64,000 bases of DNA from Pedobacter sp. ok626 (GTDB lineage: Bacteria; Bacteroidota; Bacteroidia; Sphingobacteriales; Sphingobacteriaceae), in the NCBI RefSeq assembly GCF_900100435.1, contig NZ_FNEX01000004.1, forward strand, positions 124,001 to 188,000. Direction: 5' to 3'. Made by a program: the position numbers and the translations under genes. Of the stretch, positions 11,741 to 53,238 are shown piece after piece; the first letter of the stretch is position 1; the number at the start of each line of letters is the position of its first letter. Under the pieces are notes generated by a model. The model was given only the letters and a program-made list of their open reading frames with translations, had not been told where the DNA came from and made no database searches.

Positions 11741-14700
11741 ATGAAAATAAACAAGCATATTCTTGTAATTGGTCTCTTAGCATTGATCTCCTTTGCAGGC
11801 ATAGCTCAATCGAAACTGAATGGGAGATTTTACATTAGCGGGGCATCAGAAGTTGCTTCAACTCCTAATTCAGATTATTCGATTGAAGGAACTTTTACCG
11901 ATCTGCTCTACATATATAGTGCTGCCGATATTTTACCGGGAGATATTATTGCTGATTTTGCAGGATTAACTTATAAAATTGATAAAGTAACGAGTATCAG
12001 TGGTAATTTTATTACTGTGGATGCTACTTACCTTGAGGGAGCTCCAAATGAATATGCTACTTATCCTACTTCTTATGCTACAGGTACGCTTTTCCGACCA
12101 ACACCAAATGGTTATAGCCAGTTAACTAATGATCCCGAGTATGTCAATGAGGCTTTAAAAATAGGCGTATTAAACTCTGCTATTCTAAGTATCGATAAAG
12201 ATATCAGAGGATTTAAATCCGGTACAGAAGCTGAAATGCCTCAGACTCCAAAAGCCGGTGATCTTTTTTATAATACTATAGAAAAGAAATTATACGCCTA
12301 TACGGCCGATGGTTGGGTACCTGTTGGTGGAGGAGTAATAGCCAGTGGAACAACTTCTGAATTTCCGAACCCTGCTAAAGCGGGAGAAATGTTCCTGAAT
12401 AAGGATGACAATAAAACTTATATCTATAATGGTGCTTTATGGCTTGAACTTTCTACAAATGGGTCTACCCCAAGTGCTAACATAAATCCTGACCCGACTA
12501 AGGTAAGTGTTAAGGAAGGCGACTTGTTTTATAATATATCAGACCACAAATTGTATGTTTATAATGGTACGGTTTGGATGGCAATTAATAATCTCTTGCG
12601 TAACGGCCAGATCTTCGTTGGTAATGCTTCCAATACACCCGTGTCTGTTGCGTTAACAGGCGATGCAACGATCACTAATATCGGCAAGCTGACCATTCAG
12701 CCGCTTGCTATTACTGACGAGAAACTAGATAAGACAAAAATTCCTTTAAGTGGCTTCGGTATTCCCCTTGATAATGTATCGATGGGTGATGAGGTTACAA
12801 ATTTCAAGATTATAAACCTTGCTAATCCATCGGCGAATACAGATGCGGCAACAAAGGGCTACGTAGACGCATTGGTATCTGCTCCTGGTTCGATGGTTTT
12901 AGCCAATAATAATTTCCTGGTCGGTAACAGTTCCAATAAAGCAATAGGGGTGCTGAAGAGTCTCATTCCTATTAGTGGTTTTGATAAAGCAGGAGCAAAT
13001 GTGTCAATGGGAGGTGGTACACCGGTAACGAACTTCAAGATCACAAATATGGCGGACCCTACTGCTGCACAGGACGCTGCAACTAAGGCTTATGTTGATG
13101 GTAGACAAGTTAATGCTGCAAATATTCTATTACCAACAGGGAATTTCCTGGTGGGAGATATTGCAGGTAAAGCTGTTGTTACGCTAAAAAATACAGTATC
13201 ATTAACCGGTTTTGCTGCGCCTACCGCGGATATTGCTGCAGGTGGTTTTAAGATTACTGGTCTTGCAAATCCAGTGGATGCCCAGGATGCTGCTACCAAA
13301 GGTTATATCGATACCAAAACATTTGACCCTGCTAGTATTAACCTGGGAACTGATCTTTTTATGATTGGTAATGCTACCGGAAAAGCTGCGGGGGTTGCAA
13401 AAAATACCATCTCATTGAGTGGTTTCAAAGACCCTATTGCTGACCTTTCGCTGGCAGGCTTTTTATTAACAAACATAGGCACGCCGTTAGCGGAAACAGA
13501 TGCTACAAATAAAAAGTATGTTGACGGTCTTTTTAGCTCCCCTTCTTCCATATTAGCTTTGCCTATTGGAAATCTATTTGTTGGTAACAGTACAGGGAAA
13601 GCAACAGCTACGCCGAAAATTCAGGTGCCATTGAGTGGTTTTGGTAAAGCGATTGAGAATGTGAATATGGGGGATGCAGTAAACCAATTCAATATCAGTT
13701 TTCTAAAGGACCCAGTTTTTGATCAGGATGCAGCCACAAAGAATTATGTAGACAGCAAGCTATCGACACCTGGAGTAATAACCTTATCAACAGGCCATAT
13801 TTTTGTCGGCGATGCCTCTAATAAAGCAAATGGTGTACTTAAAAGAGATGTGCCAGTAAGTGATTTCGGTACTGCAATAGCAGATGTGGTAATGGGCGAC
13901 GGAACAACTAATTTTAAAATTACCAGTCTTGCAGATCCTGCTGCTGATCAGGATGCTGCAACAAAAAAATATGTGGATTCTAAATCTTCGAAAACACCAA
14001 CAGGCCCAACTGCACCAACTGGCGCAAAACCTGGTGATACTTATTACAATACTACCGAAGATCGCTTGTATGTTTATAATGGTACTACTTGGGTACCGGT
14101 TGATAATAAACTTTCTGATGGTTACTTATTTGTTGGAAGTCCAGCAGGTATTGCCGTGTCTACCCCAAAAAATGTAGTTCCTTTAAGTGGCTTTGGTTCT
14201 GCCCAGGGAGATGTAGCAATGGGTAATTTCAAGCTGATTAATCTTGCCGAGCCAACTCTAGATCAAGATGCCGCTACTAAAAAGTATGTAGATGCGGGTG
14301 TTACTGCTGCCTCAGCTGCAGGTAAAGATAATTTGGGTAACCACCTGGCTACAGAAAATATTAAACTTTCCATAAACTCGATCAGCAATGACGGTGGAAC
14401 TAACAAAGGCTTGAGTTTCGACACACAGGGAAATGCAAGTTTAGGACAAGATCTAACCATAAACGGAAACTTGTATACGCCATCAGATAGAAACCTGAAA
14501 ACACACATTGAAACCTTAACTACTGTTCTGCAAAAAATTAATCAGATCAGAGGGGTGAGTTTTGAATATAAAGATCAAACTAAATATGCGACAGGTGTAA
14601 AAATAGGAGTGATTGCTCAGGAGCTTCAAAAGGTATACCCAGAGATGGTGATGAAAGGTAAAGATGGCTTTTTAAAAGTAGACTATACTCAACTAACGGG

Positions 14701-36513: not shown

Positions 36514-36586
36514 CAATCCCAAACGGAAACAAGATAAGTAATTATCTAGCTCTAAAAAGGGAAGACATCGGATGATGTTAATCAAT

Positions 36587-36659
<73 letters not shown>

Positions 36660-36728
36660 CTAAATATTTTCAATACCAGGAAGATATTTATAAAATTAAT
36701 CCTATCGATGTAAGTTGATAACGATTAT

Positions 36729-36813
36729 GCTCAGATGGTGGAACTGGTAGACACGCAGGACTTAAAATCCTGTGACCTTAAAAGTCGTGCGGGTTCGATT
36801 CCCGCTCTGAGTA
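36729..36813 (+). tRNA. tRNA-Leu (TAA), copy 1
   Basis: An 85-nt class II tRNA with acceptor GCTCAGA/TCTGAGT (terminal G-U), anticodon stem-loop CAGGA-CTTAAAA-TCCTG (TAA) and a long variable arm. CCA is not encoded. Identical to copy 2 at 36992. Confidence 0.97.
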
Positions 36814-36854
36814 CAAAAGACTGCATGTTATAGATGTAGCAAAACAATACCAAT

Positions 36855-36927
<73 letters not shown>

Positions 36928-36929
36928 CT

Positions 36930-36954
36930 AAAGCCTTCTTCAAAGAGGGCTTTT
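36930..36954 (+). terminator. terminator-like hairpin inside the tRNA cluster
   Basis: AAAGCCTTC and GAGGGCTTT pair over 9 bp (one G-U) with a 6-nt loop, followed by a short T-rich tract. Placed between tRNA-Gly copy 2 and tRNA-Leu copy 2, it may reduce read-through into the last tRNA. Confidence 0.55.
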
Positions 36955-36991
36955 ATTTTAAAAGATATTTCCCCACGGATATTGGGAAAAT

Positions 36992-37076
36992 GCTCAGATG
37001 GTGGAACTGGTAGACACGCAGGACTTAAAATCCTGTGACCTTAAAAGTCGTGCGGGTTCGATTCCCGCTCTGAGTA
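36992..37076 (+). tRNA. tRNA-Leu (TAA), copy 2
   Basis: Identical over all 85 nt to the copy at 36729. Last tRNA of the cluster, followed by a strong terminator. Confidence 0.97.
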
Positions 37077-37083
37077 CAATTAG

Positions 37084-38205: not shown

Positions 38206-38279
38206 GCTGTCTATTTGTGTTGGTTTGGTTTTTCAACCCTCAATTAATTTCTTAAACTATTTTGAAGAGTCATTTTAAT

Positions 38280-38337
38280 GATTACATTTGGTTCACCAAT
38301 AATTGGTTTACCAATTATTGGTGAACCAAATGTAATC
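38280..38337. repeat. perfect 27-bp hairpin with 4-nt loop
   Basis: Arms 38280-38306 and 38311-38337 are exact reverse complements (beginning GATTACATTTGG) with loop TTTA. No T-run follows, and a normal terminator already lies at 38174-38205, so it is not a standard terminator. It lies 56 nt upstream of the PL6 lyase start, where it would form in the 5' leader or act as a DNA palindrome. An inner sub-palindrome (CCAATAATTGG / CCAATTATTGG) makes the arms themselves nearly symmetrical. Confidence 0.9.
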
Positions 38338-38393
38338 GCTAACCAAACGAAAAAGTGTGAGGTTTAACCACCTTGTACTTTAAAACCAAAAGT

Positions 38394-51260: not shown

Positions 51261-51854
51261 ATGAATAGAATTGGCAGGGCGTTACTGAATTATCTGATCA
51301 AAGGATTGTTAATCGTACTCCCTATTGCATTAAGTATTTTTATCGTAATCTGGGCTGTCACAACAGTGGATAGCTGGTTAAATGTAAATAACATTCTGGG
51401 GGTTGACCCCAAAACAGGTGCAAGTAGAAATATTCCTGGTTTAGGCCTTGCCCTAGTCGTTTCATTGATATTACTGGCAGGTATTTTTGTAACGTATTTT
51501 GTTACTGAACCAATGTACAATTGGTTTCAGCGTTTACTAGATAAAGTGCCATTTTTAAAGTTTATTTATTCTTCTATAAAGGACCTTACTGAGGCTTTTG
51601 TGGGGGATGAAAAGAAGTTTAATAATCCTGTTTTAGTAGAAGTGGAAGGTGATTTGAAGCGAATTGGTTTTCTTACCCAGGGTGATTTGAAATCTATCAA
51701 TCTGCCTGGAGAGTCTATCGTGTATTTCCCGTTTTCTTATTCATTTGCAGGGCAGGTGTACATTGTGAAGCATGAGAAAATAAAGCCATTAAATATGAGT
51801 GCTGCTGATGCCATGAAATTGGTGGTGTCTGGCGGGGTTAGCCATTTTGGGTGA
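51261..51854 (+). CDS. DUF502 family membrane protein
   Basis: A 197-residue protein with two N-terminal TM helices (LLIVLPIALSIFIVIWAV and LALVVSLILLAGIFVTYFV) and a soluble domain with VPFLKFIYSSIKDLTEAFVG, FNNPVLVEVEGDLKRIGFLT and YFPFSYSFAGQVYIV. These are the hallmarks of DUF502 (related to plant LIKE-COV). Function is unknown. Its stop codon (51852-51854) is directly joined to the structured repeat that follows. Confidence 0.92.
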   Translation: MNRIGRALLNYLIKGLLIVLPIALSIFIVIWAVTTVDSWLNVNNILGVDPKTGASRNIPGLGLALVVSLILLAGIFVTYFVTEPMYNWFQRLLDKVPFLKFIYSSIKDLTEAFVGDEKKFNNPVLVEVEGDLKRIGFLTQGDLKSINLPGESIVYFPFSYSFAGQVYIVKHEKIKPLNMSAADAMKLVVSGGVSHFG

Positions 51855-51936
51855 AAAATTGATCATTGTTCGCCTCGCCAAATCTTTTTCTGAAGGGAAA
51901 AATCTTTGCATGTCGGCTCACAACAATCAATTTTTT
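51854..51936 (+). repeat. structured repeat element, copy A (unrecognised family)
   Basis: An 83-nt element beginning at the last base of the DUF502 stop codon. The outer stem AAAAATTGAT pairs with ATCAATTTTT. Next are TTGT/ACAA and GCC/GGC helices separated by a 2x2 internal loop, and an inner hairpin TTTTTC-TGAAGG-GAAAAA. It ends in a T-run. The central ~61 nt match copy B (52426-52511, opposite strand) except for two bases that pair with each other. A candidate structured RNA or terminator, or a REP-like palindrome. Confidence 0.85.
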
Positions 51937-52017
51937 CTGGAATGACTAACAACCGGCAAGACGGATAGGTAGGCTTACAAATTGGAGAGGTGTTTAATCA
52001 GATTTAATTTTATAAAA

Positions 52018-52362
52018 ATGATAAAGATTTATCATAACAACAGATGTAGTAAAAGCAGGTGTGCTTTGGCTGTTTTAGAAGAAAGCGGAGAGGAGTTTGA
52101 AATTGTAAATTATCTGGAAGCCGCGCCAACTGCAGAGGAGTTGCGTTCTATTATTAGTAAGCTTGGTATTAGAGCTCATGAATTGGTTCGTAAAACAGAA
52201 GCGATTTATAAGGAGAAATATAAGGGGAAGGAGCTTTCTGATGAAGAATGGATTGCTGCGATGGTGATAGATCCTATCTTAATAGAACGCCCGATATTAG
52301 TATCAGGCGATAGAGCTGTAGTCGCAAGGCCTACAGAGAAAATCCACGAGATTTTGGGATAA
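52018..52362 (+). CDS. arsC: ArsC family (glutaredoxin-type) arsenate reductase-like protein
   Basis: A 114-residue thioredoxin-fold protein with the ArsC active-site motif YHNNRCSKSR (Cys10) and RKTEAIYKEKYKGKELSDEEW, then VIDPILIERPILVSGDRAVVARP as in glutaredoxin-dependent arsenate reductases of the YfgD subgroup. The ATG at 52018 fits the family start; an in-frame ATG at 51982 adds an unlikely N-terminus. No other ars genes are nearby, so a real role in arsenate reduction is uncertain; it may be a Spx/ArsC-like redox protein. It sits alone between two inverted copies of a structured repeat. Confidence 0.88.
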   Translation: MIKIYHNNRCSKSRCALAVLEESGEEFEIVNYLEAAPTAEELRSIISKLGIRAHELVRKTEAIYKEKYKGKELSDEEWIAAMVIDPILIERPILVSGDRAVVARPTEKIHEILG

Positions 52363-52425
52363 CATAGAAAACCAGCTATACTAAGCTGGATCTTTGAATG
52401 GTTGGTTTGTTAGACGATTTCAAAT

Positions 52426-52511
52426 AAAAAGATCAAATGTTGTGAGCCGACATGCAAAGATTTTGCCCTTCAGCAAAAGATTTGGCGAGGCGAACAATAA
52501 TTGATCTTTTT
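52426..52511 (-). repeat. structured repeat element, copy B (unrecognised family)
   Basis: An 86-nt minus-strand copy of the element at 51854. Outer stem AAAAAGATCAA pairs with TTGATCTTTTT: different sequence from copy A, but equally self-complementary. The inner hairpin is TTTTGC-TGAAGG-GCAAAA, so copy A's T-A pair is a G-C pair here. It starts 19 nt after the stop codon of the minus-strand LOG gene, in that gene's sense orientation, and ends in a T-run. Confidence 0.85.
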
Positions 52512-52530
52512 ATAGTAATATATTAGCCCG

Positions 52531-53238
52531 TTAGAAATTCGGTTTCAATACATATTTGTCGTAGAATCTGAAGATATGCTCAGCAGCTTCTTCAGCAGTA
52601 TCAACCAATCTAAAAAGGTTTAAATCTTCAGCATGGATATTGTGTTCTTTCTGTAACATCGTATTCGTAATCCAGTCTATTAACCCGCCCCAATAGTCCT
52701 TTCCAACTAATACAATAGGAAAACGTGCAACTTTGCCGGTTTGTATCAGCGTAATAGCTTCAAATAACTCATCCATTGTGCCCATTCCGCCAGGTAATAC
52801 AATAAAGCCCTGAGAATATTTCATAAACATTACTTTTCTGATAAAGAAGTAATCGAATTCCAGGAGTTTATTGTGGTCGATATATTTGTTGTGAAACTGT
52901 TCAAAAGGTAAATCTATGTTCAATCCTACGGATTTACCACCATTCATGTGGGCGCCTTTATTTCCAGCTTCCATAATACCTGGCCCACCGCCTGTAATTA
53001 CTCCATATCCACGTTCAGTTAATAATCGACCGCATTCAACGGCTATTTCATAGTATTTATTTGTTTCTGCAGTTCTTGCTGATCCAAAGATCGATACACA
53101 TGGACCTATTTTAGCTAATTTCTCAAAGCCGTCAACAAATTCGGCCATTATTTTAAAGATCTGCCAGGAGTCTGTAACTTTTATTTCCTGCCAGTTTTTA
53201 TTTTCGAAAGCGCTTCTAATTTTCTCTTCACTTGTCAT
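52531..53238 (-). CDS. LOG family protein (TIGR00730-like Rossmann fold)
   Basis: A 235-residue protein with the lysine decarboxylase-like/LOG fold. Seen are VSIFGSARTAETNKYYE, GYGVITGGGPGIMEAGNKGAHMNGG and the active-site motif VLPGGMGTMDELFEAITLIQTGK (PGGxGTxxE). LOG proteins hydrolyse nucleoside 5'-monophosphates to free base and ribose phosphate; in bacteria this is AMP-nucleosidase-like activity. It lies 14 nt downstream of the symporter gene on the same strand. Its 3' end runs into structured repeat copy B. Confidence 0.92.
   Translation of the reverse strand: MTSEEKIRSAFENKNWQEIKVTDSWQIFKIMAEFVDGFEKLAKIGPCVSIFGSARTAETNKYYEIAVECGRLLTERGYGVITGGGPGIMEAGNKGAHMNGGKSVGLNIDLPFEQFHNKYIDHNKLLEFDYFFIRKVMFMKYSQGFIVLPGGMGTMDELFEAITLIQTGKVARFPIVLVGKDYWGGLIDWITNTMLQKEHNIHAEDLNLFRLVDTAEEAAEHIFRFYDKYVLKPNF

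Follow-up and report, generated by a model that had tools for sequence, protein, structure and literature searches.

Several described systems come close to the elements reported here. Bidirectional intrinsic terminators are built from an A-tract, a hairpin and a T-tract. REP/BIME elements, the GTAG and CGTC repeats that go with RAYT, are given a length of 20-40 bp, and it is reported that their termini may supply stop codons and that G.T pairs occur in their stems (PMC3733652). For the Bacteroidetes, a further report describes TnpA-REP subclass 2.6, in which a Y1 gene is flanked by atypical secondary structures that have further copies in the host genome (PMC6006769), and Pedo-repair RNA (RF01715) is listed as a structured RNA candidate from Pedobacter (PMC2864571).

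The window studied here, i.e. the whole stretch of 64,000 nucleotides from Pedobacter sp. ok626 that was analysed, contains two imperfect hairpins: element A (51854..51936, structured strand minus) and a second copy, element B (52426..52511, structured strand plus). A abuts the 3' end of the gene for a DUF502 protein (51261..51854, plus strand; Pfam PF04367) and overlaps its TGA stop codon, B lies 19 nt from the stop codon at the 3' end of a LOG-type gene (52531..53238, minus strand; Pfam PF03641, Lysine_decarbox), and an ArsC-family gene (52018..52362, plus strand; Pfam PF03960) is located between the two. The two elements are inverted relative to each other, as a pair of 83 nt with 88% complementarity. 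Sequence comparison confirmed what the initial annotation of this DNA had reported, namely a common 61-nt core (51865..51925 in A, minus strand; 52438..52498 in B, plus strand) whose two differences form a single base pair (T-A in A, G-C in B), unrelated outer arms that nevertheless pair inside each copy, and a terminal T-run, which in fact is present at the end of both strands in A and in B. The core of A shows tandem G.A mismatches, an internal loop (GACATG/GCGA) and an apical loop with CCTTC. For either strand of either copy, 0 of 200 shuffled sequences folded equally well. In a BLAST search of the whole genome A and B were the only close copies of each other, and the E value of the partner copy (1.4e-23) excludes a chance origin of their likeness.

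Other repeats occur elsewhere in the window. At 36583-37079 there are two units that look like tRNAs by eye, 82 and 90 nt long, each of them exactly duplicated; a 33-nt inverted repeat with 94% complementarity and 2 nt between its arms lies at 38275-38342, and a set of five degenerate direct repeats at 12741-14227, each of 50 nt, with 62-76% identity to the reference copy and spaced 225-660 nt apart, perhaps represents repeated protein segments.

A and B are members of a dispersed Pedobacter family of gene-end hairpins of ~85 nt. The initial annotation had considered the element to be unrecognised and to be present in two copies. The first part stood, as an Rfam search of 51700-52700 gave two matches only, both to microRNA models and far below the gathering scores, i.e. 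no credible match; the copy number, however, is far above two. An open-licence literature search yielded nothing on a Pedobacter gene-end repeat, which is no proof of absence, and a viral contig collection, consulted for a phage reservoir, held 0 exact matches to the core pattern. Relatives of A and B were recovered by blastn in 35 of 145 genomes of the genus. The covariance-model search of related genomes that had been proposed as a check was carried out with two models, R1 (A1), built from 24 copies of the A/B subfamily, and R2 (A3), built from 16 copies of a second subfamily. Further copies were found in at least 44 of 144 genus genomes for both models combined (at least 42 for R1 at E <= 0.001; at least 40 for R2 at E <= 1e-4), where the large scans scored 11-31 candidates per genome, and those of the genome of the window 150, so that the numbers of copies are minimum values and an absence carries little weight. 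The genome of the window contains at least 46 R2 matches at E < 0.01, A (8e-4) and B (6e-4) included, and this detection of A and B by R2 ties the two subfamilies together. R1 matched at least 29 of 399 genomes in a family-wide scan, in one genus of 25, and R2 at least 38 of 400 genomes in an order-wide scan, in two genera of 22, the second of which is represented by two genomes with E values of about 1e-5 to 1e-6; the order-wide scan also gave R2 matches in G022, although this genome is outside the 40 R2-positive genus genomes. All 20 stretches with the exact pattern of the A/B subfamily that were found in a collection of named genomes are from Pedobacter, and P. steynii DSM 19110 is one of the strains that bear the element.

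With regard to replichore bias, inspection by eye of three single-contig genomes (G012, G070 and G127) showed elements of either strand intermingled along the sequence. In G020:C5 (372-430 kb; L106, L090, L091 and L108) a motif scan found 19 similar variant copies on one strand only, some of them with extra repeated flanking sequence, and this cluster looks like local amplification. Same-strand copies also occur in tandem, namely three at L066:2036-2371 (G116:C1) with a spacing of 138 and 116 nt, and others in G100:C16 with a spacing of 98 nt.

In the general layout of the element, an outer stem with an A-tract and a T-tract carries the conserved core on top, in which tandem G.A mismatches and a short stem are followed by an asymmetric internal loop and then by an inner stem with its CCTTC-type apical loop; the core motifs are conserved in both subfamilies. 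In the A1 alignment 93.2% of the cells are paired and double changes are found in 20 of 31 pairs, with a covariation score of 0.408 as compared to 0.137 when shuffled and at most 0.119 when slid. Orthologous copies were also aligned separately: the A site (13 rows) has double changes in 16 of 29 pairs and a covariation of 0.437 (0.155 shuffled), the B site (10 rows) has them in 13 of 30 pairs with a covariation of 0.397 (0.158 shuffled). Two other measures are weaker: shuffles reached the observed count of further pair types in 7 of 500 cases at the A site and in 140 of 500 at the B site, and that of double-change pairs in 6 of 500 cases at the B site. At the orthologous sites the A-U pairs closest to the foot are almost invariant, and inner stems are swapped while the loops are kept. 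We read these data as showing hairpins that selection maintains in place. The earlier claim that the structure is maintained is thereby borne out by compensatory changes, both family-wide and at the orthologous A and B sites.

The initial annotation had also described each copy as lying 3' of a gene in sense orientation. The placement at gene ends stands, but with respect to the abutting gene it is the antisense strand that is the structured one. In A, the minus (gene-antisense) strand has a fold energy of -29.2 kcal/mol versus -22.0 for the gene-sense strand, in B the plus (gene-antisense) strand has -35.6 versus -28.0 kcal/mol, and in both cases the better-folding strand carries the G.U pairs and the tandem G.A mismatches. 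The same comparison was made for the union of the overlapping R1 and R2 sets, i.e. 155 non-redundant elements, 140 of which have flanks and lie outside G020; in 133 of the 155, the antisense strand has the lower RNA folding energy by prediction. Isolated mismatches were counted in arm alignments that treat all mismatches alike, and this gave 136 G.U, 18 A.C and 186 others on the antisense strand. The counts were 122, 18 and 185 for the 144 elements that remain when the G020 loci are left out, and the ratio of G.U to A.C was 115:13 and 55:8 for the two models, whose sets overlap. Because the elements were mostly found with antisense-strand models, 24 seeds from strand-neutral blastn served as a check on the resulting bias, and these show 24 G.U versus 2 A.C on the antisense strand. 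A control set of 105 ordinary terminator-like hairpins at most 90 nt after a stop codon gave 44 G.U, 18 A.C and 36 others on the gene-sense strand, where elements and control hairpins come partly from related genomes and hence are non-independent. With 136:18 on the antisense strand as against 44:18 on the gene-sense strand, the strand polarity of the elements is opposite to that of ordinary terminator-like hairpins. It is thus the folding of the gene-antisense strand that selection preserves, and such a conservation is unusual for an ordinary transcription terminator.

Distance and orientation relative to stop codons were tabulated, as had been suggested initially, with genes called by a crude codon-usage ORF finder, so that some neighbours are wrong. 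In 117 of 140 elements an antisense gene has its stop facing the 3' side of the structured strand, and in 86 of 140 this side is within -15..+30 nt of that stop, whereas the 5' side is within -15..+30 nt of the stop of a sense gene in 5 of 140. In the genome of the window 34 of 46 elements face an antisense gene's stop, 29 of them within -9..+28 nt, and 12 do not; for 15 of the 46, the structured strand has a gene start upstream and not the end of a convergent gene. In nine element pairs of this genome the copies are separated by less than 700 nt, always with the minus copy first and then the plus copy, an order that would follow if both genes of a convergent pair had an element of their own. 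No tRNA was found between short element pairs in five loci, and no promoter-like motif upstream of the structured strand stands out in the element flanks. The terminator-like character that had been proposed is apparent in the A/T tracts that flank the hairpin on both sides, the T-tract strength being equal on both strands. A separate terminator beyond the element, with the stop codon before it, was detected for at least 16 of the 46 elements (18 matches, two of which were discounted), as compared to 0 of 46 shuffled sequences and 3 of 20 other gene ends in the window with the same finder, and 11 of the 46 element regions also have a terminator in the other sense. With such terminators nearby, the element does not act as the sole terminator, and the structured strand can be transcribed only by readthrough. 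A 3'-UTR RNA element on the gene-sense strand, for instance for the protection of mRNA 3' ends or as a processing site, would agree with the fixed polarity near the stop codon, the frequent position ahead of an ordinary terminator and the maintenance in place at orthologous sites, but is decidedly unlikely given that G.U to A.C is 18 to 136 on the gene-sense strand, that the gene-sense fold is weaker in most copies and that the tandem G.A turns into pyrimidine mismatches on that strand.

The DUF502-LOG junction was examined at 30 loci. Ten genomes (G037, G018, G014, G013, G128, G017, G004, G029, G116 and G112) have an element-free junction with stop codons 1-28 nt apart, although G037, G029, G116 and G112 have elements elsewhere. 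The junction is likewise element-free in G052, whose 77 nt contain an ordinary terminator, in G033, which has only arsC, and in G058, which has other sequence. The A/B pair is present without arsC in between in G134, G089 and G126, and some genomes have a single element only. In G012, arsC is kept and A is missing, and the B site consists of B's outer stem closed by a 5-nt loop, with no core. A purF tree, in which a single branch separates the 24 element-bearing rows from the rest, joins G012 with the genome of the window and G038 (99/99), and for this reason core loss is the simpler reading, i.e. the core was probably lost in G012 and the terminator-like stem kept; a LOG tree, which has poor resolution, requires five changes of the element label. 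In G119 (L260) the 117-nt spacer of the junction has arms (AAATCAAATG/CATTTGATTT) resembling B's outer stem, with an inner sequence unlike B, and is called by neither R1 nor R2.

A second junction, whose flanking genes we take to be a LysE-like gene and purF, was read by eye at 30 loci, with no left gene in G038, G070, G001 and G011. The genome of the window and G053 have an element pair with a plain terminator in between, G100 has one element and a terminator, and G037 has an element pair whose left member carries a very different inner stem. Sixteen genomes, most with elements elsewhere, lack an element here: their stops are separated by 52-92 nt that contain a plain terminator-like hairpin. 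At both junctions, element-free relatives often have hardly any spacer or else an ordinary terminator. A terminator-type nature of the outer stem is indicated by its A/T tracts, by the ortholog without a core and by the plain terminators found at sister junctions. The core-less version in G012 and the A/T tracts on both sides would also fit ordinary bidirectional terminators whose cores are homogenised by gene conversion and have no extra function. The conservation of core motifs in both subfamilies, the replacement of orthologous inner stems while loops are kept and the strand polarity opposite to ordinary terminator-like hairpins nevertheless make this very improbable.

A REP-type family with a linked RAYT, as the initial annotation had envisaged, is not supported. 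One REP-like trait is present in that the elements are dispersed palindromes, often in inverted pairs, which at ~85 nt are longer than usual. No Y1_Tnp gene (PF01797) is found over the cut-off in the genome of the window and 2 of the 42 R1-positive genomes carry one; neither model gave a credible element at 20 Y1 loci of the genus (best E 0.16 and 1), and a GTAG/CGTC foot tag is absent beside the foot of 106 R1 and 74 R2 elements (overlapping sets), where only A-/T-rich positions are prominent. We rejected RAYT linkage on the basis of the genome distribution and the element searches at the 20 Y1 loci. Of two weak Y1 matches in the genome of the window, one lies in an ORF that we take to be FecR-like and one in a stretch antisense to a long ORF. 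Across the genus, Y1_Tnp genes (82/144 genomes) and the hairpin family (44/144) are almost mutually exclusive, with 2 shared, which is probably a matter of clade structure.

A live rival, though in our view somewhat unlikely, is a REP-like mobile or recombination element, whose antisense strand would fold as single-stranded DNA and whose copies would have been placed at gene ends by a putative nuclease or recombinase. It would account for the many copies in two subfamilies, the exclusively minus-then-plus order of the nine close inverted pairs, the same-strand tandems elsewhere (L066; G100:C16) and the one-strand cluster in G020:C5, and the near identity of the A and B cores despite unrelated outer arms; in addition, REP termini reportedly supply stop codons (PMC3733652). 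The distribution of Y1/RAYT genes, the lack of credible elements beside them and the missing foot tag count against it, and compensatory change at fixed orthologous sites is unexpected for an inert insertion. If true, it would point to a system for mobility or recombination that works without a RAYT.

The polarity at stop codons and the antisense-strand selection indicate that RNA or single-stranded DNA of the antisense strand matters. Our tentative best explanation, to which we assign a probability of roughly 0.42, is that the elements are bidirectional terminator-type hairpins with a conserved core, tuned to stop downstream-derived transcripts before these enter the gene in antisense. The outer stem with its A-tract and T-tract would act as a bidirectional hairpin of the intrinsic-terminator type; RNA arriving from downstream, by readthrough of a convergent gene or by stray antisense transcription, would fold into the optimised antisense-strand structure, and transcription would stop at the gene's stop codon, before entering the gene. 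That the structured strand is transcribed, that termination occurs there and that the core strengthens termination or binds a factor are steps that we infer. The main weakness of this antisense-stop reading is that the ordinary terminator beyond at least 16 of the 46 elements should already stop much of the RNA, and a long conserved core, which is not needed for termination, also counts against it, as do the equal T-tracts on the two strands, the 15 elements with a gene start upstream, the 12 that face no antisense gene's stop and the lack of a promoter-like motif ahead of the elements. It is unlikely that the elements are dedicated gene-end guards, i.e. hairpins that fold in gene-antisense RNA and have their core read by a putative dedicated protein, and that would mark gene ends and protect them against convergent transcription. 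With element, core-less stem and plain terminator side by side at orthologous junctions, the family offers a natural way to test whether bacterial gene ends are shaped to counter antisense transcription.

Integron attC sites fold their bottom strand downstream of a gene and go with cassette arrays of the direct-repeat type, R-box core sites and an IntI integrase. In the present elements the antisense strand folds downstream of a gene, close pairs in the genome of the window are inverted, and the R-box order of attC is not seen in the alignments of either subfamily. Pedo-repair RNA (RF01715) is likewise a structured RNA candidate from Pedobacter, yet 51700-52700 has no match beyond chance to RF01715 or any other Rfam family. 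The structures of TnpA-REP subclass 2.6 share their occurrence in Bacteroidetes and their multiple copies in the host genome, and are set apart in that they flank Y1 genes, whereas at 20 Y1 loci of the genus neither of our models gave a credible match. With REP/BIME sequences and their RAYT the elements have in common that they are dispersed palindromes near gene ends, in inverted pairs and clusters, and, as reported for REPs (PMC3733652), that termini can supply a stop codon and stems contain G.T pairs; they differ in exceeding the 20-40 bp given there, in their marked polarity to the gene and in having neither a GTAG/CGTC foot tag nor a RAYT found in the host. Bidirectional intrinsic terminators, finally, resemble them in the A/T tracts that flank the hairpin at gene ends, and relatives hold plain terminator-like hairpins in the same kind of place; unlike such terminators, the elements are ~85 nt long with a conserved core, are often located beside a separate terminator and are selected for their gene-antisense fold.
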